From the NCBI GenBank assembly GCA_026394075.1, contig JAPKYX010000096.1:1-38518 (forward strand): DNA of 38,518 nucleotides, in the 5' to 3' direction. The notes beneath the pieces were generated by a model, which worked only from the letters and a program-made list of their open reading frames with translations, made no database searches and was not told the DNA's origin. The stretch comes from Acidobacteriota bacterium. Lineage in GTDB: Bacteria > Acidobacteriota > Terriglobia > Bryobacterales > Bryobacteraceae. The stretch's first letter is position 1. The number at the start of each line of letters is the position of its first letter. The position numbers were made by a program, and so were the translations under genes. This document shows, piece by piece, positions 27,768 to 38,518 of the stretch.

Positions 27768-29618
27768 TTAGCGGGTGCGGACGGGTATGTTGACCGCGAG
27801 GCTGGACGCACCGGCCGCAATCACGCGGAGCGCGTGCGAACCATCGGGCAGGCTGGCCGGAACATCTACCGTCACCTGGCAGACACCCACCAGGCCCGGG
27901 GCCAAGCCAGCGAAACTAGGCGTGACGGATTGTTCGGCAATGCGCACTTCAACCGCGCCCAACGCGCGCAGCGGCGGAGAGTACGGGGCGGGAGCGCCGG
28001 GAGGAAGATCGCTATCGACGCGTCCGAGACCGGTCAAATAGATGATCAGTGTCTCGCCCGCGCGGGCCGGGTTGGCGGCGTCGATGATGGTGCCATTCAG
28101 ACGTCGAATGCCCGAGGCAAAGATCGCGGGGGCGGTTTCGGCAATCTCCACCTTCATGGTGGTTTCGCCGCTGGCCGTCGTAATGCGCAGCAGCGACGGC
28201 CCCGTGATTCCGGCCGGCACCTGAGCGTTGATCTGACCCGGCGACACGTACACCAGCGGAATGAGAATGTCGTTGATCGAGACGGTGGTTCCGGCAAGGT
28301 CCTTCGGCAGGGGCGAGACCTGGGCGGTGGCTGTCTCATTGGCCAAGCCTTCGCCAAAAATCGTCACCAGTGAGCCGGGGGCCACCGCCGAAGTGAACGA
28401 TGCCGCATTGACGAAGGCCCGTTCCGGCGGGAGCACCGGAATCGCCAGCATGGTCCGGTCAATCTCTCTGCCATCGGTGCCGATCGCCCGCACGGTGAGT
28501 GTCGCGTTGGTGACTTCCACCCGCAGATAATGAAACGCTGCCACCGATTTGGCTACCAGTTCATGCGGGGCCACGGTGTTCAAGCGGGCGCCGCCGCCGC
28601 CGCTGACGACGTGCAGCGTAGCCGGTCCCGTGGTGACCACCTGGTTGCCGCGCACCGGCTTGGATCGCTGATAGGAATGCTCGTGCCCGGTCAGCACCAA
28701 CTGGACGCCGTAGCGCTCCAGGATGGGCAAAAACTGCTCCCGCGCGGCGCGGCACAGGGGGTCCCGCAGATGGTGCGTCAACGGATAGGGCAGGTGATGG
28801 AAGAAGGCGATGCGCCAGCGCGCCGTGGTGGCCTGCAGGTCCGCTTCCAGCCAAGTCAACATCCGCTGTGTGGCCGCGGTATTGTCCAGCAGGTTGGAGT
28901 CGAGCGAGACGAAATGGGCGTCGTTCCACGCGAACGAATAATACCGGCCGTGATCCTGGGCGGGCACTTCTCCCGCGGGTGCCGCCGTCAGCGCCAGATA
29001 CGGTGCCGCGCGCGCGGTCCAGTATTCGTGGTTGCCCGGCGCGGTGAAGAAGGGGGCGCGCGCCATCAGGCTGGCGTAGTATTCGAAGTAGTAGGCCTGG
29101 AACTGCTCGAAGGTGGCGTCTTCGTAGGCAATGTCGCCGACATGCAAGGCCAAGTCCGGCCGCTCCTCCGCCATGCGCTGGGCCAGGAGTTGTTGGGGGG
29201 CGCTGCCGTCGCCACTGTCGCCCAGGACCAGGAAGCTGAACCGCCCGGTATCGGGCGTCTTGAAGCGATTCCGCGTCTCGCTGGTGATGACGTCACTGCC
29301 GACGGTAATCCGGTAGGTGTACTCTTTGCCCGGCGCTAAGCCTCGTAAATCCACCCGGTACTGATAGAAGGTGAAAGGAACAGACGTCTCCGCCGGCCCC
29401 AATGGGCGCGCCCGGACGGGCACCGTCACCGGGTCCGAGCCTTCAGTCGAGTAGGTGACCGAGGCCTCCACATTCTCGCGCGTCGACCAGAGAATGGTGG
29501 CTCCATCCGAGCGCACATTCTGCAGGTAGGGCCGGTGGATCGGCGTGACGGCGGCCCGGAGGGCCGAGGCGGCGAAGTGGCCGCCCACCAGGAGGCCGAC
29601 GAAGCCGCGCCGGTCCAC
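27768..29618 (-). CDS. Purple-acid-phosphatase-like metallophosphoesterase with Solibacter C-terminal domain
   Basis: A roughly 616-residue exported phosphatase. It has a Tat-like leader (VDRRGFVGLLVGGHFAASAL) and a fibronectin-like purple acid phosphatase N-domain (PYLQNVRSDGATILWST). The metallophosphoesterase core has all metal-site motifs: LGDSGDG, HVGDIAYED, PGNHEYW, FFHHLPYP and TGHEHSYQR. The last 220 residues match the TIGR03437-type Solibacter domain (FVNAASFTSAVAPGSLVTIF, VYVSPGQINAQVP, GLGRVDSDLPPGAPAPYSPP). I chose GTG 29618 because it directly precedes the Tat motif; the frame is open back to TTG 29720. It follows the CotH gene by 150 bases. Expected role: releasing phosphate from organic phosphates or polyphosphate outside the cytoplasm. 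Confidence 0.9.
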   Translation of the reverse strand: MDRRGFVGLLVGGHFAASALRAAVTPIHRPYLQNVRSDGATILWSTRENVEASVTYSTEGSDPVTVPVRARPLGPAETSVPFTFYQYRVDLRGLAPGKEYTYRITVGSDVITSETRNRFKTPDTGRFSFLVLGDSGDGSAPQQLLAQRMAEERPDLALHVGDIAYEDATFEQFQAYYFEYYASLMARAPFFTAPGNHEYWTARAAPYLALTAAPAGEVPAQDHGRYYSFAWNDAHFVSLDSNLLDNTAATQRMLTWLEADLQATTARWRIAFFHHLPYPLTHHLRDPLCRAAREQFLPILERYGVQLVLTGHEHSYQRSKPVRGNQVVTTGPATLHVVSGGGGARLNTVAPHELVAKSVAAFHYLRVEVTNATLTVRAIGTDGREIDRTMLAIPVLPPERAFVNAASFTSAVAPGSLVTIFGEGLANETATAQVSPLPKDLAGTTVSINDILIPLVYVSPGQINAQVPAGITGPSLLRITTASGETTMKVEIAETAPAIFASGIRRLNGTIIDAANPARAGETLIIYLTGLGRVDSDLPPGAPAPYSPPLRALGAVEVRIAEQSVTPSFAGLAPGLVGVCQVTVDVPASLPDGSHALRVIAAGASSLAVNIPVRTR

Positions 29619-29768
29619 CAGTTGAGTCGTGCGGTTAGCGGCGGAGCGCACCACGCCTGTCAGAGACGCGGGCCAATAACGTCGCGCCAAACTGCCAGAA
29701 ATGTGCGGTCCTGATTCCAACTACTTCCTGCTCAACTCCATCGCCTCTTTATGGAAGGCGTCCGATTC

Positions 29769-31442
29769 TCACGCCGCCGGTGGAGCCGCCACCGCCACCT
29801 TAATGGTATTGCTAAATGTCGCATTAATGGGGGATCCAGAGCGAGTTCCCCGCGAATTTGTTGGCCCGGAAACCATCACTGTAATCGGTGTGGTACCGGT
29901 ACTGGTGCCCAGTTCAGCCGGAATTTTGATCCGGATGCGATCCGGTGCCAACGTTAACAGCTGCGCTTCAAATCCGTTGATGTACACCGAGACATTGCCT
30001 AGCCTGGTCACCGGCTTGTCGGCGGCCGCTTCCAGCGTCTCCTCGCCAAATCCCAGCCCGGTCAATTCCACCACGGCACCCGGTGTGATGGCGGAGACGG
30101 CCTCGCGTGCCTCATTCACCACCTGTTCGGCTAAAGTAACCGCCGTGGAGGGCACGTATCCGACTTCGGTCAACGCCGTCCATACGAAGGCGGCCCGCTC
30201 CGTCACGTACTTCTCATTGGCCGCAATCTGAGCCTCGAAGACTTCGTTGGTGCTGGGCGTCTCCACGCCGGACTTGGAGTACTGCTTGTTCTTGTCGGCG
30301 TAAACAGCTTCCTTGATCTGGTTATAGCTTTGGCGGTTGTACCATTCCAACCAGCCGTCTTTGCCCCCGGCCAAAACCACCAACTTATACAGCGCTTCCA
30401 GGTACTCATTCTTCCGCTGCGGGATGGCGGTCAGTCGGCGGGTGAGGATGTTCTTGCTGAGGTTGTGGAAGATGTCGCGCGTGGCCCAGTCGTAGGAAGC
30501 ATCTTTGTCCCACAACAGGAAGTCAAACTTGCCGCCTTCTTTGTGGCGGTACACAAAAAAGTTATTCATCCCGAAGACATCGCCCAGCATGGAGTCGTAG
30601 TCGGTCACGTAGCTCTCGGCGGCGATGTGGTTCAGGAACACCTTGGGGTCAATTGACTTCTCCACCGCCGCCGCGAAGTCGGCGTCGCTGGCTTCATTGA
30701 ACGACCGGATGAAGTTGATCCAGGGAGCGATATCGAAGGTGGACTTGTTCTCCTCCGGGTTGAAGGGGGCCGGCGTCCAGCGGGCCGGATCGGTGCTGCA
30801 AGCCACCTCGTCGGACTTGCCGCAGGTGGGCCGCCAATCGAAGTAATACGTCGGGAAGGGATCGTACTTGAACAGATCGCCGCTGCCCTCGCCCAAATAG
30901 CGCTTGGTGTATTCCGACCGGACTTCTTCCGTCAACAGGAACAGGCCCACGTACTCTCCATTGATGAAGAGCCGGCAAGGAGCCTGCATCGAGGCTGGCA
31001 GACCCAGGCGCGAGTAGAGCTTGAACACCGATCGTTCTTTCAGCATCGAAGCGTCCTGGTTGTTGGCCTTCAAGACGGCTGAATTCACACCCAAGAACTT
31101 CTGCTCCGGGTCATAGCGGTTGAAGTCGATGCGAAGATTGGGCTTAATGGAGCTGCGGCTGCCGCGGCCCCGGGAGCGGATGGCCACATCGGGCACCGTT
31201 ACTTCCTTGCCGTTGGCCAGCCAGGTGAACTCCACCGGATAGTAAGTGTTGTCCAGATAGGTGGCCTTGAGTTTCGCCCAATCCGCGGGGCGGATCTCAA
31301 AACGAAGTTCCTGCACCTTGCTGCCATCAAAGAAGTCAGCCAGTGTCAGCCCGGCTGGCACTTGAGCCAGCACAGCGGGTCCGGCCAGGAGACATAGTCC
31401 GATCAGGCGGCTGCCTCTCGTGCGTGGACGGTCCGTCAACAT
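29769..31442 (-). CDS. CotH kinase family protein with TIG-like C-terminal tail
   Basis: A 557-residue exported protein of the CotH family, atypical protein kinases first known from spore coats and common in bacteria beside DUF4956 and VTC genes. It has a signal peptide (LIGLCLLAGPAVLAQVP). The CotH domain covers about 35-400: RSRGRGSRSSIKPNLRIDF, VLKANNQDASMLKERSVF, CRLFINGEYVGLFLLTEEV, ESYVTDYDSMLGDVFGMNNF and the catalytic-type FLLWDKDASYDW. The tail (about 455-550: ITPGAVVELTGLGFGEET, GNVSVYINGFEAQLLTLAPD) resembles the start of the Solibacter C-terminal domain of the next gene. ATG 31442 has GAGAGG seven bases upstream. It begins 20 bases after the porin gene. Its phosphorylation target is unknown. 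Confidence 0.92.
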   Translation of the reverse strand: MLTDRPRTRGSRLIGLCLLAGPAVLAQVPAGLTLADFFDGSKVQELRFEIRPADWAKLKATYLDNTYYPVEFTWLANGKEVTVPDVAIRSRGRGSRSSIKPNLRIDFNRYDPEQKFLGVNSAVLKANNQDASMLKERSVFKLYSRLGLPASMQAPCRLFINGEYVGLFLLTEEVRSEYTKRYLGEGSGDLFKYDPFPTYYFDWRPTCGKSDEVACSTDPARWTPAPFNPEENKSTFDIAPWINFIRSFNEASDADFAAAVEKSIDPKVFLNHIAAESYVTDYDSMLGDVFGMNNFFVYRHKEGGKFDFLLWDKDASYDWATRDIFHNLSKNILTRRLTAIPQRKNEYLEALYKLVVLAGGKDGWLEWYNRQSYNQIKEAVYADKNKQYSKSGVETPSTNEVFEAQIAANEKYVTERAAFVWTALTEVGYVPSTAVTLAEQVVNEAREAVSAITPGAVVELTGLGFGEETLEAAADKPVTRLGNVSVYINGFEAQLLTLAPDRIRIKIPAELGTSTGTTPITVMVSGPTNSRGTRSGSPINATFSNTIKVAVAAPPAA

Positions 31443-31462: not shown

Positions 31463-32827
31463 CTACAGCACAAAACTCATGCGGGCAAACCTGCTCCAGT
31501 AGGTATTGACCCCCGGAATGGGAGCCGTTCGCCCATCCTCCAGCACTTCGCGAATCCAGTTGTATTGAATTCGCATGTGGCGATTGAGGTACCAATTCAC
31601 CCCAAACGTCGCCACCCGTTCGCTTTGCGAAAGAATGTTGGCCGCCCGCGTATTGCGGGACGGCAAGCCGGGGTTGGACGCCGATCCGAAACGGATCTGT
31701 TCGTACCGGCTGGCAATCTCGAACGCTCCCAGGCCCTTGCCGGTCCCAAAATCGCGGCGCGGCCGGACGACATTCTGCTTCTGCTCGCCGGTCACCAGCC
31801 AGGTGCCGGAGCTGTACCAGCCCCGGGCGATCAAGTCCGACAGATCCTGCCCCCGGATCCCTTGTCCCAGCCGCTGATCCGTGACGCGGATCACTTCTCC
31901 GCTCAGCGAAAACGGGCCGTGGACCCAGTTCAGTTCGGCCCCCATGCGCCAACGTTGGCCGCGCACAAAAATCCGGGGGAAAAAGTTATGCGTGTCCACC
32001 CAAGTCCGGCTGCGGAGACTGTGCAATCCCTCCGTGACGGGCGTCTGCGCCACCGCAAATCCGAGCTCCAACTCCTGGAACGGCTTGACCGCGGAGGGTA
32101 CCTTAAAAAAGCGCAGAGGCGTTGCTGCAATGCGCCCGGCAATCGTCCGTTCCCCGCTGCGGGTGTTATCGGGCAACCGGGCCTTCCAGCCGTCGCTGAT
32201 GAAGATACCCGCTTGGTATTGAACGCGGCGGTCCAGCACCCGGGCGTGGGCCATGATGCCGACATCGCGACCAGGGGCCAGACGCTCGCCGATCAGCGAC
32301 CGGAAGGCGAAGTCTCGGTGCGCGGTGCCTTGCTGGGCGTCCAGGCCGAAGGGAATCTTGAACTGGCCAGCGCGAATCTGGAAGCGGCGCCAGTAGCGGA
32401 AGTTTCCATACACATCGCGCCACAGCGCGTCCGTCTCACGGGTTCGCATCCGAAGAGCCGCGCCGACCTCGTTGCGGATTTCGCGGTCGATCTCGAACTC
32501 AAAATGGGGCGTGATGCGGCCTTCGATGCCCACCCGCATCGTGCGGAGGTTGGCGACGTCCCCTTCTTCACCCCTAATCTCGGGCTCAAAGGTGCGGAGA
32601 TCGTGCAGAAACTTCACCCGGAAGTCTAATCTGATCCAGTCGCCCAGATGGACGCGCGGCCGGGGCCGCATTTCCAGGCGCGGGTTCCCAAACAGGCGCT
32701 TCATCCCCGTCAACGCGACGGCGGGCGGGGCGGTATGCGTTGCGGCGGCAGGAGGCGCCGGGTCCTGCGCGGAGGCGGAGGCAGCACCACAAAGCAAGGC
32801 CGCAACGAAAAGGTAGTGCCGATGCAT
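31463..32827 (-). CDS. Phosphate-selective porin O/P-like outer-membrane protein
   Basis: A 454-residue outer-membrane porin of the OprO/OprP type, which passes phosphate, pyrophosphate or polyphosphate. It has a signal peptide (MHRHYLFVAALLCGAASASA), an Ala/Pro-rich linker and a long series of amphipathic strands. Typical family stretches are RTMRVGIEGRITPHFEFEID, FRIRAGQFKIPFG-like (FQIRAGQFKIPFGLDAQQ) and RDVGIMAHARVLDRRVQYQA. The end is VNTYWSRFARMSFVL. The start ATG 32827 shares one base with the stop of the DUF4956 gene (TGATG), so translation is coupled. Arg-rich strands fit anion selectivity, but the exact solute is inferred. Confidence 0.88.
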   Translation of the reverse strand: MHRHYLFVAALLCGAASASAQDPAPPAAATHTAPPAVALTGMKRLFGNPRLEMRPRPRVHLGDWIRLDFRVKFLHDLRTFEPEIRGEEGDVANLRTMRVGIEGRITPHFEFEIDREIRNEVGAALRMRTRETDALWRDVYGNFRYWRRFQIRAGQFKIPFGLDAQQGTAHRDFAFRSLIGERLAPGRDVGIMAHARVLDRRVQYQAGIFISDGWKARLPDNTRSGERTIAGRIAATPLRFFKVPSAVKPFQELELGFAVAQTPVTEGLHSLRSRTWVDTHNFFPRIFVRGQRWRMGAELNWVHGPFSLSGEVIRVTDQRLGQGIRGQDLSDLIARGWYSSGTWLVTGEQKQNVVRPRRDFGTGKGLGAFEIASRYEQIRFGSASNPGLPSRNTRAANILSQSERVATFGVNWYLNRHMRIQYNWIREVLEDGRTAPIPGVNTYWSRFARMSFVL

Positions 32828-33624
32828 CAGGCGCTCTTCTTTCCAGCTTCCTGCCACGAAACTGCCTTCAACCCGGCTTCGCCATTCTCCATCAGCTGCT
32901 GGCTGATCCAGGAAAGCTTCGTCGTTGCAGCCAGCATGACGCTGTAGCGAACCGTTGCTTCATTTCCCCGTATCAATTCCCGGACCTCATAGTAATCGAC
33001 TGTTGAACCCAGAATTCGTTGCACGTGATCGTTAGGAAAATCTTTCCCGGTCGCCACAATTGTCAAAACCAGGGTGCGGCCCGCGGATTCGCCGATCTTG
33101 TCCAACAGGGCGATGACGGCACACAGGAACACCGCCCCACCAGCCGCCACCTCCATCAGCCCCACGCCGCTGGCCATGCCGAGGGCGACCAAAAGGAAGA
33201 GGACCGTCGTGTCTTTGGGGTCCTCAACCGGCGTCCGGAAGCGCACGATACCGGCGGCACCGGCCACACCGAAGGCGATGGCGGTGGAATTACCGATGAT
33301 GATCATCACCAGCGCGCCGGCGATGCAGAGCAGCACCTGGGCCTGTTGGAGCGAACGCGGAAGCGGGCGGTCCCGGTGGAACCGCTTGTGCACGGCGGTG
33401 ACCAGCAGGCCGATCAGCGTGGCCAGCACCATTTTCAGAAACTGAGTCAGCGGCGTCACCGGTCCTCTGGACGATTCATCCAGGCCGGGAATGCCGGTGT
33501 GAAGCCCTGAGGCCGCCAGCACATCCGGCATCCGCAAGGCACCGAGAATGGCGGCTACGCCCACCAGGCAGAACCCCGCCGCCCATCGCCAGCTTTCGTC
33601 AGGCTCCTGTTCGCGCAAACTCAT
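32827..33624 (-). CDS. DUF4956 membrane protein
   Basis: A 265-residue inner-membrane protein. A hydrophobic helix lies at about 14-33 and another near 62-80, followed by a cluster of three to four helices at about 95-175. The family core GNSTAIAFGVAGAAGIVRFR, then TPVEDPKDTTVLFLLVALG, is the DUF4956 hallmark. A soluble C-terminal domain follows (about 180-265). Family members usually neighbour CotH and VTC polyphosphate polymerases, which fits the CotH and porin genes here. Function is not established. ATG 33624 lies downstream of GGGAG (12 bases) and of a promoter with a perfect TATAAT. It is the first gene of the unit extending to about 27768 or 26376. Confidence 0.9.
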   Translation of the reverse strand: MSLREQEPDESWRWAAGFCLVGVAAILGALRMPDVLAASGLHTGIPGLDESSRGPVTPLTQFLKMVLATLIGLLVTAVHKRFHRDRPLPRSLQQAQVLLCIAGALVMIIIGNSTAIAFGVAGAAGIVRFRTPVEDPKDTTVLFLLVALGMASGVGLMEVAAGGAVFLCAVIALLDKIGESAGRTLVLTIVATGKDFPNDHVQRILGSTVDYYEVRELIRGNEATVRYSVMLAATTKLSWISQQLMENGEAGLKAVSWQEAGKKSA

Positions 33625-33710: not shown

Positions 33711-34607
33711 TTACGGCTCCGGCTCATCCTCTTCCAGGTCATCGGCGGCGCGGGCCGAGGAGGCTGTCTCCACGCCACCCGGTGTCCGGGCGGCCAACTG
33801 CGTAAAGTATTCACTCAATTGACATATCAGGGCTGGATCGGTCACCGTGACGGCCACTTCACGGCGCTCGTTGAGTGACGGCCTAGCGAGCGAGGCACTG
33901 CCGAACACAGCCACCTCTTCATCAATCAGGAGCAGCTTGCCGTGCGAGGTCATCCCGGCCAAGTCACCTTGACCCAAGATCTGCACCTCGACTCCTGCGC
34001 GCTCCCGTTCCTGCAGCAGGCGGACGATCTGGGAATCGCGGACGCGGTGATCGATGATGCGGATCTGGTGCTGGGCGCCGGCGATCAGGCTGGCGAAGCG
34101 GCCCCGGGCGATCTCCGGCCCCACTAAGAGTCGCTGGCCGAGATTGTCTGGTAAAGCCAGTGGCGGGCGGGCGCGGTCGGCTTCAAACAAGGCGGTCAAA
34201 CCGATGACGACATCCGGGTCCGTGGTGGTGAGAATAAAGTCGCAGGTGCGGTCAAAGCACTTCGACGTGAAGTTCAGCGACGCCACCAGGGCGGTTTCGT
34301 CATCCGCCACCATGTACTTGGCGTGATACTTGGCGTGCTCACCGGCATAGCGGGTCATTTTGACGCCCATCGATTCCAGCAACAGGCCCAGGTCCTGCAA
34401 CCGCTTGTCCCAGTTCTTGGCGGACGGTGTCAGCAGTGCCGTCACCTGCACACCGCGCGACACGGCGTCGGCGATCTCGTCCAGAATCGCGAAATCCTGA
34501 CAACGGAACACGGACAAAATCAGGCGGCGGCGGGTGGACCGGATCAGCTCCAGCACGGCGGGCCGCCGCTGGGATGCTTCTAGAATCAGCCTTTCACTGT
34601 GGCTCAC
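33711..34607 (-). CDS. Phospholipase-D-like protein with two HKD motifs
   Basis: A 298-residue member of the phospholipase D superfamily (phosphodiesterases, cardiolipin synthases, Nuc-type nucleases). It has two intact HxKxxxxD motifs: H95-K97-D102 in YHAKYMVADDE, followed by ALVASLNFTSKCFD, and H222-K224-D229 in SHGKLLLIDEE, followed by AVFGSASLARPSLNERRE. There is no signal peptide or N-terminal membrane anchor, so it is probably cytoplasmic or peripheral, unlike classical cardiolipin synthases. The tail is acidic (DDLEEDEPEP). The start is GTG 34607; no clear ribosome binding site is seen. It is divergent from the kinase-like genes across 178 bases. Lipid or nucleic-acid substrate cannot be decided. 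Confidence 0.88.
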   Translation of the reverse strand: MSHSERLILEASQRRPAVLELIRSTRRRLILSVFRCQDFAILDEIADAVSRGVQVTALLTPSAKNWDKRLQDLGLLLESMGVKMTRYAGEHAKYHAKYMVADDETALVASLNFTSKCFDRTCDFILTTTDPDVVIGLTALFEADRARPPLALPDNLGQRLLVGPEIARGRFASLIAGAQHQIRIIDHRVRDSQIVRLLQERERAGVEVQILGQGDLAGMTSHGKLLLIDEEVAVFGSASLARPSLNERREVAVTVTDPALICQLSEYFTQLAARTPGGVETASSARAADDLEEDEPEP

Positions 34608-34785
34608 GCCCGCTGACTATAGCATGGTCCACCTTGACCACTGCCGCCGCTGATCTTGCATGACGGGGCCAGTTCCAGTAATGTCTTGAGATGGTGTGTC
34701 GTCCTCGGTTGGCGGTTCTGGCGGCATCCGGCATCAGTGGCTTGGCTGCTGAGGCGAGACATCATCGCGGAGAATACTCCTCACA

Positions 34786-35460
34786 ATGAACATAATCCCC
34801 GGCTTTGAGCGCCGCCGGCGTATCAGCAAGCAGATTGCTGCGTTGATCGAGAAACGGCAAGAAAAGCGTGGGCTGTTGATCGCTTTTGAAGGCCCGGACG
34901 GTTCCGGCAAGACCACGCAACGGAAGCTTTTCAAACAGTGGCTCCACAGTGAAGGGCATGACGTCACCACCACCAAGTGGAACTCATCGGCGCTGATCAA
35001 GCCGGTGGTCAAGGTCCGCAAGCAGGTCCGCGCACTGAGTGCGGAGGAGTTCTGCCTGCTGCACGCCGCTGATTACCGCTACCGCATGGATTCCGAGATT
35101 CTGCCGGCCCTCTGGGAGGGCACCACGGTGGTGGCGGACCGGTTCCTGTTTACGGCCCTGGCTCGGGACGCGGCCCGCGGGCTGGAGTTGGATTGGTTAC
35201 TGAAGGTATATTCGCCGTTGTTCTGGCCGGATCTGGTGTTCTATTTTTCCGTGTCGCCTGAAACGTCCAGCCAGCGCATTGCGGCCGACCGCGACCCCAG
35301 CTACTACGAAGCCGGTCAGGACATTACGCAGATCGACAACCCCCTGCAAAGCTACCGGACGTTTATCACGCGCGTCATTGCCGAATATGAGGCGCTGGCG
35401 GGTATCTTCAAGTTCGTGACGATTGACGCGGAACAGTCCGATATGATCAGCACCGGCTGA
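34786..35460 (+). CDS. Thymidylate-kinase-like P-loop kinase (C-terminus apparently frameshifted)
   Basis: A 224-residue (as read) nucleotide kinase of the dTMP-kinase superfamily. After a basic N-terminal extension (FERRRRISKQIAALIEKRQE) comes Walker A EGPDGSGKTTQ (about 36-46), then HAADYRYRMDSEILPALWEG, the DR(F) motif TTVVADRFLF and ADRDPSYYEAGQD in the lid region. The extension and context make it unlikely to be the housekeeping tmk. As read it stops at 35460, but one frame over the sequence continues with 40 coding-like residues (YDQHRLIRGIFEKAERRSW and on) to a stop at 35559-35561, eight bases before the next ATG. One missing base near 35437-35439 (CC for CCC) would explain it. Start ATG 34786; GGAG lies 13 bases upstream. 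Confidence 0.85.
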   Translation: MNIIPGFERRRRISKQIAALIEKRQEKRGLLIAFEGPDGSGKTTQRKLFKQWLHSEGHDVTTTKWNSSALIKPVVKVRKQVRALSAEEFCLLHAADYRYRMDSEILPALWEGTTVVADRFLFTALARDAARGLELDWLLKVYSPLFWPDLVFYFSVSPETSSQRIAADRDPSYYEAGQDITQIDNPLQSYRTFITRVIAEYEALAGIFKFVTIDAEQSDMISTG

Positions 35461-35561
35461 TCCGAGGCATCTTTGAGAAAGCTGAGCGCCGCTCGTGGGC
35501 GGAGTGGAACCAGGAGGCGCTGGTAGACTGGCTGGTGCAGCACCCGCGGCTGGCCCACTAG
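35439..35561 (+). other. Out-of-frame C-terminal extension of the kinase-like gene
   Basis: Read from 35439 this stretch gives 40 residues rich in Trp, Arg and Glu (SWAEWNQEALVDWLVQHPRL) without a stop before TAG 35559-35561, directly following the kinase frame after one inserted base. It is a plausible helical C-terminus for the kinase and leaves a normal eight-base gap to the paralogue. Confidence 0.65.
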
Positions 35562-35569
35562 AGATAACT

Positions 35570-36157
35570 ATGGCGAACCAAGGCCGACTGATTGCATTAG
35601 AAGGTACCGGCGGGTATGCGCTGGCCCAGGCGGCCAAGCGGCTGCAACGGCAGTTACGGGAGCCGCGCAAGCCCGCACCGCCCGTTTGCACCTGGGATGC
35701 CTCCGGGATTTTTCACGAGATCCGGGAAGGGGCTCGCGGCATTCCGGGCACCTCTCCCCGGACGCTTCTGTTGCTCTATGCCGCCGACTTGGCCTTCCGT
35801 CTGCGATGGCAGATCCGGCCGGCGCTGGAATCCGGCATCACCGTGATCGCGGCACCCTATCTGGAAACGGCCATTGGCTTTGGCCGGGCGGCGGGCCTTT
35901 CCTCGTCCTGGCTGAAGGACTTGCTCAGCTTTGCCCCAGCGGCCAACGGCTGCTACCGGTCGCCGGAGGGCGCCACTTCGGTGGCCAAGATGCCCAAGGC
36001 TTCCGACAGCTTCCTCGAGTTCGGCTTCCTGCAACTGCGCAATACTGACGGCCGTTGGAATACCGATGAGATCCGGGCCGGGTTTATCGCTCATCTGGCG
36101 GGTCTGGAAAATAAGGGCAAGTGTGCAACGGTAATGGCCCTGAAGCCCACTAAATAG
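35570..36157 (+). CDS. Degenerate thymidylate-kinase-like paralogue (putative pseudokinase)
   Basis: A 195-residue protein colinear with the preceding kinase. GRLIALEGTGGYALAQAAKR corresponds to its Walker A region, YAADLAFRLRWQIRPALESG to HAADYRYRMDSEILPALWEG, and ITVIAAPYLETAIGFGRAAG to TTVVADRFLFTALARDAARG. The Walker A Gly-Lys-Thr is gone (GTGGYALA) and the DRF motif reads APY, so ATP-dependent phosphoryl transfer is not expected. The frame is intact and its amino acid pattern conserved, so it is probably a maintained, non-catalytic partner and not a decaying gene; that is inference. ATG 35570 is chosen because the frame upstream to GTG 35495 overlaps the kinase's shifted tail. It lies seven bases before the TonB receptor ATG. 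Confidence 0.75.
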   Translation: MANQGRLIALEGTGGYALAQAAKRLQRQLREPRKPAPPVCTWDASGIFHEIREGARGIPGTSPRTLLLLYAADLAFRLRWQIRPALESGITVIAAPYLETAIGFGRAAGLSSSWLKDLLSFAPAANGCYRSPEGATSVAKMPKASDSFLEFGFLQLRNTDGRWNTDEIRAGFIAHLAGLENKGKCATVMALKPTK

Positions 36158-36164
36158 TAGGCTG

Positions 36165-38518
36165 ATGACCAAACAACAGGATGCGCAGACATTGATGGCG
36201 CGCTGGCTCCCCTGGGCTCTGGCCCTCGTGAGTGCCGCATCGCTGTGGGCGCAATCATCCTCCGGCACCGGGGCGATCAGTGGCACCGTCCGCGACCCTT
36301 CCGGCGCGGGCGTGGTGGCGGCCACGGTGGTGGTGTCGCACGAAGATCGGGGTGTCCGGCGCGAAATCGTCACTTCCGCCAACGGGTCGTTTCACCTGCT
36401 GGGCTTGCCGCCTGCGCCGGGCTATGTGCTGACGGTCAGTTTCGCCGGCTTTGCTGACCAGGAGTACACCGGCGTCGAGGTGGAAACCGGCGAAGAGACC
36501 GCCCTGGACATCACGATGGACCTTTCACCGCGCCGAACGCGCGTGGTGGTTGAAGAGTCGATTGTGGTGGCCGACCGCGGGAGTGCCGGTGTCTCCCAGG
36601 TCATCCCCGAGTCGCAAATTCTCAACCTGCCGATCAATGGCCGCCGCGTTGACAGCTATGTTCTGCTGACACCGGCCGTAGTGCCGGACGGATCCACGGG
36701 ACTGGTCTCCTTCCGCGGCATTGCCGGCGGCAATGCATTTCTCACCGACGGTAACGACACCTCCAACCAGTTCTTCCATGAAAACGCCGGACGCACGCGG
36801 ATCTCGGCGCAGATTTCACAGGACGCGGTGCAGGAGTTTCAAGTGCTCTCCACCGGCTATTCGGCGGAGTATGGCCGGGCCTCGGGCGGCATTATCAATA
36901 CGGTTACGCGCAGCGGGTCCAACCGGACTGCGGGCACGGCCTACTGGTTCTACCGCAATCGGGCAATGACGGCGCGGGACCCCTATGCGACGGTGAAGCC
37001 TCCCGAGAAGCGCCATCAGGCAGGGGCGAGCTTGGGCGGCAAGCTGATCCCGGACAAGCTGTTTTACTTCTTCAATGGCGAAATTCACCGGCGGGATTTC
37101 CCTATCGTGTCGTCACTTTCGCGCCCGCCTCTGTTCGGCCCCGATGGCCGCTTCCGCGGCACCTGTGGGGCGACGGCCCAACAATGCGCGGCCGCACTGG
37201 CATTCGTGGGGCGGAACTTTGGCGTGCTGGAACGGACCTCCGGGTCAGAGCTTGGCTTTGGCCGCATCGACTGGCGCCCGTCGGAAAAGAATGCCGTCAG
37301 CGCCAGCTTCAACTACCTCCGCTGGGCCTCTCCCAACGGCTACCAGACGCAGTCCGTTCTGAACAATGGCGAGGCGTTCGGGGCCAACGGCAACTCCAGT
37401 GTCCGGACCCGTTATGGCCGCCTGGCCTGGACGGCGACACCCAACGCCCGCTGGATCAACGAACTGCGGTTCGGCTGGTTTAAGGACCGCCACGCCGACG
37501 ACCTGCCCGCCAACCTGATCCCCGCCGCCACGGGCACGGTCCAGATCTCGATCGAGGGTCAACCGAACCTGGGCGTGTTGTCGGAGGTTCCGCGGCTGAA
37601 CCCCAGTGAGAACCGGTTCCAACTGGCCGAGAACGTCACCTGGAGCACCGGCCCACACACGATTCGCGCCGGGGCCGACATCATCCGGACCCAGGAGTAT
37701 CTGCGCTACCTGCGGAACCGCAACGGCACCTACGATTACGCGGACTTCACCTCGTTCGCCCGGGACTTTACGGGCAACACCACCGGTGCCCGCCGCTGGC
37801 AGGCCTATTCGCAACGCTTCGGCCGGGAGGTGTTCGATCAGACCATTGGTGACTACAACTTTTATGTCCAGAACCAACACCGGTTGCTGCCCAACGTCAC
37901 GCTGAACTATGGCGTGCGATATGAATACTCCCATCTGCCGCAACCGGAAACCGGCAGCATTCCGACCATCGCCACCAACTTTGCGCCGCGCATCGGGCTG
38001 GCGGCGGGCTTGAACCATTCGCGGACCGTGCTCCGGGCCGGCTATGGCATCTTCTATGCGCGCTACCCGGGCGGCGTGGTGAGTACGTTGTTTCTGGAAA
38101 ACGGTACTTACCAGCGTTCCATCCAACTGGAGCGGCGCTTTCTGTCCGATCAGGAGTCCGGACCGGTGTTCCCCAACCGCCTGCCCCCGTCAGCGGCCTC
38201 GAGCAGTGGCCTGGCGGGCCTGCCTACCGATCTGACGATGGCCTCCCCGGACTACCGGAACCCCTACACCCAGCAAGGCGACTTGGGCGTTGAGCATGCG
38301 GTGAGTTCCAGCCTGAGCATCAATGCCTCCTATATCTGGAGCCGGGGACTGCATCTCACGACAGTCCGGGATAGTAACATCGGCCGGATGGGTGCGCCGA
38401 TCTACTATTCCATTGAAGATTCCGCGGGCAAGGAAATAGGAGAATACTCGACGCCCAGTTACCGTCTGATCAACCGCCTCAATCCGAATTGGCGGCGGAT
38501 CAATCAGATCGAATCCGG
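36165..38518 (+). CDS. TonB-dependent receptor, Oar-like, N-terminal part (cut by window edge)
   Basis: 784 residues of a large outer-membrane receptor with an open frame to the right edge. It has a signal peptide (WLPWALALVSAASLWAQSSS) and a carboxypeptidase-regulatory-like domain at about 35-120 (GAISGTVRDPSGAGVVAATV, NGSFHLLGLPPAPGY). A plug follows (QILNLPINGRRVDSYVLLTP, QDAVQEFQVLSTGYSAEYG, GGIINTVTRSGSN), then barrel strands (NFYVQNQHRLLPNVTLNYGV, FAPRIGLAAGL). The start is ATG 36165 or the in-frame ATG 36195, which gives a more compact signal peptide; neither has a strong ribosome binding site. Only seven bases separate it from the pseudokinase, suggesting co-transcription, which is odd for such a receptor. 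The ligand is unknown. Confidence 0.93.
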   Translation, partial: MTKQQDAQTLMARWLPWALALVSAASLWAQSSSGTGAISGTVRDPSGAGVVAATVVVSHEDRGVRREIVTSANGSFHLLGLPPAPGYVLTVSFAGFADQEYTGVEVETGEETALDITMDLSPRRTRVVVEESIVVADRGSAGVSQVIPESQILNLPINGRRVDSYVLLTPAVVPDGSTGLVSFRGIAGGNAFLTDGNDTSNQFFHENAGRTRISAQISQDAVQEFQVLSTGYSAEYGRASGGIINTVTRSGSNRTAGTAYWFYRNRAMTARDPYATVKPPEKRHQAGASLGGKLIPDKLFYFFNGEIHRRDFPIVSSLSRPPLFGPDGRFRGTCGATAQQCAAALAFVGRNFGVLERTSGSELGFGRIDWRPSEKNAVSASFNYLRWASPNGYQTQSVLNNGEAFGANGNSSVRTRYGRLAWTATPNARWINELRFGWFKDRHADDLPANLIPAATGTVQISIEGQPNLGVLSEVPRLNPSENRFQLAENVTWSTGPHTIRAGADIIRTQEYLRYLRNRNGTYDYADFTSFARDFTGNTTGARRWQAYSQRFGREVFDQTIGDYNFYVQNQHRLLPNVTLNYGVRYEYSHLPQPETGSIPTIATNFAPRIGLAAGLNHSRTVLRAGYGIFYARYPGGVVSTLFLENGTYQRSIQLERRFLSDQESGPVFPNRLPPSAASSSGLAGLPTDLTMASPDYRNPYTQQGDLGVEHAVSSSLSINASYIWSRGLHLTTVRDSNIGRMGAPIYYSIEDSAGKEIGEYSTPSYRLINRLNPNWRRINQIES

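Follow-up and report, generated by a model that had tools for sequence, protein, structure and literature searches.

What is the function of a kinase gene that is followed directly by a colinear gene from which the catalytic motifs have been lost? Such a pair is present in the window, i.e. the whole stretch of 38,518 nucleotides analysed here (contig JAPKYX010000096.1 of assembly GCA_026394075.1), which comes from an Acidobacteriota bacterium of the family Bryobacteraceae. The two genes, designated A and B, are arranged as follows:

34786-35460, + strand: gene A, kinase of the thymidylate-kinase (TMK) fold, putative PPK3-like catalytic subunit (open reading frame, 224 aa)
35430-35561, + strand: homologous C-terminal frame of gene A, unbroken in the congeneric genomes G001 and G002
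35570-36157, + strand: gene B, TMK-fold pseudokinase, putative non-catalytic or regulatory subunit (likely ATG start, 195 aa)

Two adjoining genes of one predicted fold

Gene A matches the Pfam family Thymidylate_kin (E 3.9e-23) and its motifs are intact: Walker A (GPDGSGKTTQ), DR (ADRFLFTA), WNSS, ARD..RG and YEAGQD. The basic N-terminal stretch is predicted by AlphaFold2 to form a helix (residues 5-26). The canonical tmk of this genome is a separate gene on contig C68, which speaks against gene A being the housekeeping tmk, as the initial annotation had expected. Near position 35440 the window copy is one base short in comparison with two congeners (G001 and G002). The last six codons of the listed reading frame are out of frame, and this frame ends early; the homologous frame reaches a stop at 35559-35561. 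The remainder of the 3' end is well conserved despite the frame break, so that either the mutation is recent or the assembly is wrong at this point. In a comparison of the window genome with G001 and G002, gene A has a dN/dS of 0.022-0.073. A scan of positions 34550-36300 revealed no promoter-like sites and two terminator-like sites (1.6 expected).

The listed reading frame of gene B (35495-36157) opens with GTG and overlaps the end of gene A; the likely start is the ATG at 35570, eight bases past the stop of the homologous frame of gene A. The two genes are colinear (30% identity in a blastp alignment of 117 residues; E 3e-10, searched against a small local set), and gene A used as a query against its own genome retrieves gene B with E 3.8e-10. 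At the position of Walker A, gene B carries GTGGYALAQ, and at that of the DR motif, AP. Walker A, DR and YEAG are all missing, and residues W42, S45, A71, D73 and R77 are retained.

Both proteins were modelled with AlphaFold2 (gene A, pLDDT 91.6 and pTM 0.83; gene B, pLDDT 86.8 and pTM 0.84). The best solved match of the gene A model is ST1543 of S. tokodaii (Z 25.1, rmsd 1.8 over 194 residues, 36% identity). The best matches of the gene B model are also thymidylate kinases (top Z 16.5, rmsd 2.9 over 171 residues), and its Z against ST1543 is 16.1. These models and the alignment bear out the initial annotation, which had described a tandem kinase and pseudokinase, the second colinear with the first, devoid of Walker A and DR and still of the same fold, a point on which its proposal had been made to depend. 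The match of its model to thymidylate kinases speaks against any other fold for gene B.

The tandem pair in other genomes

Named genome contigs were scanned with A- and C-type proteins, and among the best 80 loci a tandem second copy was present in 77 (the exceptions are L062, L075 and L140). Three types of pair were named: A/B, as in the window; C/D, after a second tandem pair of the same genome on contig C231; and g1/g2, which comprises 64 loci (L078-L141), mostly from Gastranaerophilales and other Melainabacteria, with two of Armatimonadota type and one from Phycisphaerales.

All 65 C/D loci examined (L044, ten others, L142 and a further 53, chosen so as to sample many families and genera, some of the latter more than once) contain the pair. 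The A-type loci number 29, four of them fetched twice, which together with L165 gives 26 distinct ones; an intact gene B is found in 23 of these. L062 retains no more than the beginning of B, and B is absent from L075 and L165, so that A can occur alone. The conservation of the pair in relatives, for which the initial annotation had itself proposed a search, makes its idea of a catalytic/non-catalytic heteromer plausible. Genome G088, the source of L165, contains a true A/B pair at another locus (L143). The solitary A-type genes lie at 7759-8697 of L165 and 1911-2738 of L075.

At the level of the class, a profile of B found a match with E 1e-8 or better in 140 of 299 genomes, 130 of which have two or more; a B-type match above 190 bits was obtained in nine of the 299.

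In a quick tree with SH-aLRT support only, the A proteins form one group (99), as do the B proteins (99). The C proteins group together with a single g1 row (96), and 14 of the 16 g2 rows fall with D (99). This grouping, C with g1 and D with g2, indicates that the split into first and second members is older than the pairs of these phyla. The position of B is unsure, the branches being long, and ST1543 lies on a long and weakly placed branch. Two metagenome-assembled genomes labelled Cyanobacteria and Acidimicrobiia (L067 and L070) cluster tightly with the acidobacterial A/B pairs and are probably mislabelled bins.

Gene context and polyphosphate

The C/D pairs have a recurrent context. An exopolyphosphatase (Ppx) gene lies within 5 kb in 35 of the 65 loci and a CHAD gene in 46; one or the other is present in 52 loci at this distance and in 46 within 500 bp. 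Neither was found within 5 kb in 13 loci, some of which are ended by a contig edge. On contig C231, both Ppx-GppA and CHAD were confirmed by Pfam. CHAD domains are described as polyphosphate-binding in a passage of PMC6537752, and a figure legend in PMC10892726 places SixA, PPX, dTMP kinase and CHAD in one gene group of biomining archaea. For the Gastranaerophilales pairs, no constant context of the Ppx/CHAD kind was seen in the few loci inspected, and single-sequence queries gave no match to Ppx or CHAD near them.

The distribution of the family is also anticorrelated with that of the polyphosphate kinase PPK1. In the 299 genomes, both a family match and PPK1 are present in 34, the match only in 106, PPK1 only in 130 and neither in 29 (Fisher odds ratio 0.07, p 2e-24, with kinship ignored). 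One family (f11) contributes 73 PPK1-only genomes without a pair, and without these the counts, in the same order, are 34, 106, 57 and 29. The window genome yielded no match to PPK1, nor to the VTC polymerase domain (PF09359) at E 0.001; it does contain PPK2, elsewhere than at the A/B locus. PPK2 is a P-loop kinase which works on polyphosphate and has two-domain forms with one inactive half. It belongs to a different Pfam family (PF03976), against which gene A scores 12.5 bits (cut-off 22.3, E 0.11).

A closer parallel is provided by the archaeal enzyme of Hofmann and colleagues, which is said to be encoded by two genes annotated as thymidylate kinases that adjoin ppx, to consist of one catalytic and one regulatory subunit, and to work chiefly in the direction of ATP formation. 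The reported design agrees with that of the bacterial C/D pairs. Judged by sequence, the A/B pair shares with it a tandem of TMK-family genes of which only the first would be catalytic, but not the ppx neighbour (0/29 loci), and for this reason we call it PPK3-like and do not assign it to PPK3. It also differs in its far more degenerate partner, in a cluster of phosphatase, CotH, porin and DUF4956 genes, and in being bacterial rather than archaeal; this comparison was made with the reported design and with ST1543 as a proxy for the Sulfolobus proteins. The pair is likely to be a variant form of this recently reported kind, and not the undescribed two-subunit system that the initial annotation had suspected.

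The archaeal enzyme is referred to as a "distinct" polyphosphate kinase of Crenarchaeota, PPK3, in the records of Hofmann et al. (J Biol Chem 2026, 302:111283; bioRxiv 2024.08.28.610084), and excerpts of PMC11677633 and PMC13318637 credit Hofmann et al. with characterising the polyphosphate-making enzyme of S. acidocaldarius. According to excerpts of PMC6864096 and PMC7831078, PPK1 and PPK2 were not found in Crenarchaeota. The ppx gene of S. acidocaldarius is Saci_2018. In one record, the name ppk3 is also given to a Ruegeria gene under PPK2. PMC3680246 and PMC3163519, among others, name both thymidylate kinase and polyphosphate. Among the papers listed for a heteromeric polyphosphate kinase or for PPK3 subunits, none looked relevant, and DUF4956 is not mentioned in the ten of 312 papers inspected for it; searches for work linking Acidobacteriota, polyphosphate and thymidylate kinase, or dealing with the S. 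tokodaii ST1543 dTMP kinase, found none.

The neighbours of the A/B pair in the window, all on the opposite strand, are of another kind than those of C/D:

33711-34607, - strand: phospholipase D (PLD)-like protein (PLDc_2), divergent neighbour, two HKD-type motifs in the sequence
32827-33624, - strand: DUF4956 membrane protein, of a family that adjoins VTC in some relatives without A/B
31463-32857, - strand: phosphate-selective porin O/P family protein
29769-31442, - strand: CotH kinase-family protein (ATG 31442 taken as the likely start, in a frame open from 31952)
27768-29720, - strand: purple-acid-phosphatase-like metallophosphoesterase

The PLD-like protein gave weak matches to C-terminal domains of PPK1 (E 0.0015-0.0024), under the Pfam cut-offs. 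In three A/B loci, the DUF4956 protein carries an N-terminal STAS domain (L067, 11761-12873; L068, 10576-11691; L142, 6854-8095).

Among the 29 A/B loci (25 distinct), several of which are ended by a contig edge, a metallophosphatase was found in 19, PLD in 20, CotH in 16, the porin in 15 and DUF4956 in 13; Ppx was found in none and CHAD in one (L142). In the latter locus, which lies on one contig of genome G065, a C/D pair with CHAD adjoins an A/B cluster. Both pair types thus occur in G065, as they do in the window genome.

A similar neighbourhood surrounds the VTC polymerase, the domain of which has a different fold from TMK. VTC was detected in 15 of the 299 genomes (16 matches), and within 5 kb of these matches lie DUF4956 (11), CotH (10), the metallophosphatase (3) and the porin (2); at five of the 16 all four are missing. 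In one genome (G070), five successive genes encode metallophosphatase, CotH, porin, DUF4956 and VTC in this order, each confirmed by Pfam. None of the four neighbours was found within 5 kb in 64 control C/D loci (L142 excluded), and PLD gave a weak match in two of them (neighbour cut-offs, 1e-6 for the C/D control and 1e-5 for the VTC loci). The A/B pair therefore sits among genes of a kind that accompanies a polyphosphate polymerase in relatives; this likeness is an association and not a proof. VTC itself gives no match in the window genome. The initial annotation had held that the neighbours do not reveal the function; the set shared with VTC, and the exopolyphosphatase and CHAD genes beside most C/D pairs, speak against this. 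The systems can coexist: of the 15 VTC genomes, a C/D-type match is present in six and PPK1 in eight. None of the nine genomes with a B-type match above 190 bits is among the 15, to which we attach no weight (about 0.5 expected by chance).

Taken with the homology to the family, this neighbourhood links the A/B pair to polyphosphate, and we consider that the pair probably forms a heteromeric polyphosphate kinase of a bacterial, PPK3-like type. The catalytic subunit would be gene A, which would exchange phosphate between polyphosphate and a nucleotide (ADP/ATP). Gene B, which appears to keep the fold and a conserved acceptor-side surface and has no P-loop to hold the nucleotide phosphate, would be a stimulating or required partner; it may form a dimer with gene A by way of the face at which TMKs usually dimerise, and might also guide the polyphosphate chain. 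Substrate, complex and the role of gene B are what we infer from these data. In relation to the C/D pair, which is commoner, the A/B lineage would be a divergent paralogue, placed in the type of phosphate cluster in which other acidobacteria keep the VTC polymerase. Counted against polyphosphate are the context of the A/B loci (Ppx in 0/29, CHAD in 1/29) and the low numbers of porin (2/16) and phosphatase (3/16) at the VTC matches, and the solitary A genes slightly lower the support for a PPK3-like enzyme.

A further step, which we put forward tentatively and would not expect to hold, is that A/B displaced VTC in a membrane-linked polyphosphate module and is a specialised form of PPK3 beside a cytosolic, Ppx/CHAD-linked C/D pair. 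The kinase and its inactive partner, together with DUF4956 and the PLD-like protein to which they would be coupled, might then make or consume polyphosphate at the envelope, and the porin, the CotH protein and the phosphatase might handle polyphosphate outside.

The strongest rival is that A/B is a neofunctionalised PPK3-like pair acting on another phosphate acceptor, e.g. an envelope phosphate or a CotH-linked substrate, and not on polyphosphate. It would account for the near absence of Ppx and CHAD from the A/B loci, for the separate clade of A (99), for the much greater losses in B than in D, and for the coexistence of both pair types in the window genome and G065. However, the window gene A keeps the signature residues common to C and ST1543 (see below), and its neighbourhood resembles that of the VTC polymerases of relatives; we regard this rival as rather unlikely.

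If the pairs are polyphosphate kinases, a large bacterial family is mislabelled in public databases: relatives of the pair are widespread in bacteria under the label "thymidylate kinase", which is probably wrong. With 106 of the 140 matching genomes of the class lacking PPK1, the pairs would also be a candidate for the polyphosphate kinase that is "missing" from many bacteria of soil and gut.

Signature residues and the loss of motifs in the second gene

A set of residues distinguishes gene A from the canonical thymidylate kinases. W65-N66-S67-S68, H93-A94, D96, R100, R127-D128, W137, G177 and D179 (A numbering) are shared by A, C, ST1543 and the first genes of the pairs from other phyla, some of them varying within A (N66 is present in 62% of rows). 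They are absent from 11 canonical acidobacterial TMKs (among them that of the window genome on contig C68), except for D179 in one of the 11. Canonical thymidylate kinases have the fold, the P-loop and the DR motif in common with gene A, but their dTMP-site motifs (EPGG and Arg-x-Gln-Asn, of the Arg-Ala-Gln-Asn type) are replaced in A and C, and gene A has an inactive tandem partner.

ST1543 (PDB 2PLR, 4NZY, 4RZX and 5H70), the closest solved structure to gene A, scores 239 bits with the A profile (next PDB sequence, 92) and shares WNSS, DRYIYTAYARD and EAGxD with gene A. It thus carries the signature of the paired family under the label dTMP kinase and may be mislabelled. Should this be so, these four entries may already hold a structure from the paired group under a wrong name.

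The signature bears on the possibility that A supplies an additional dTMP (or dNMP) kinase activity in salvage or under stress, regulated by B. The NCBIfam model TIGR00041 (dTMP kinase) scores gene A at 96 bits (cut-off 83) and several first and second copies elsewhere above the cut-off; the best 50 fold matches of gene A are all named thymidylate kinase, dTMP kinase or TMK. Among the NCBIfam matches, the main ones were dTMP kinase models and none was a named PPK3 model. The replacement of both dTMP-site motifs in A and C, the canonical tmk elsewhere in the genome and the mostly Ppx/CHAD context of C/D nevertheless make such a role improbable.

Gene B is under purifying selection and is not decaying, its dN/dS being 0.076-0.085 across the three congeneric genomes (the window genome, G001 and G002). 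Among 15 B proteins there are 20 invariant columns, all within residues 42-122, and none in the former P-loop. In 23 distinct B proteins (A numbering), the Walker lysine, the following Thr and Gln, D118-R119 and R127-D128 are never kept, and W65, S68, A94, D96 and R100 are always present. We take the conserved patch to be the acceptor side and the dimer face, by analogy with TMK anatomy, and on this assumption the phosphate-donor side of B is gone and the acceptor side and dimer face are conserved. That B is a decaying duplicate without function, as its lost motifs, the mere start of B in L062 and its absence from L075 and L165 could suggest, is largely contradicted by the selection, the invariant columns and the retention of the pair in 23 of 26 A-type loci, and is highly improbable.

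Comparison of motifs shows that far more has been lost in B than in D. In the 64 g1/g2 loci among the best 80 of the scan, every first copy keeps the Walker lysine; the second has Lys in 56, Arg in seven and is missing in one. The D proteins have Arg at this position in all 33 rows examined. The second members can thus be set in a series from an intact Lys (56/63 g2 among the matches listed) through Arg (33/33 D) to no P-loop (23/23 B). Such a series, GKST to GRST to no P-loop, would record an enzyme becoming a regulatory subunit.

In one C/D locus (L052, 10500-11870), the second subunit continues, as judged by eye, into a HAD-phosphatase-like stretch in one open frame. A similar gene, also identified by eye, follows the C/D pair in L058 and L059.
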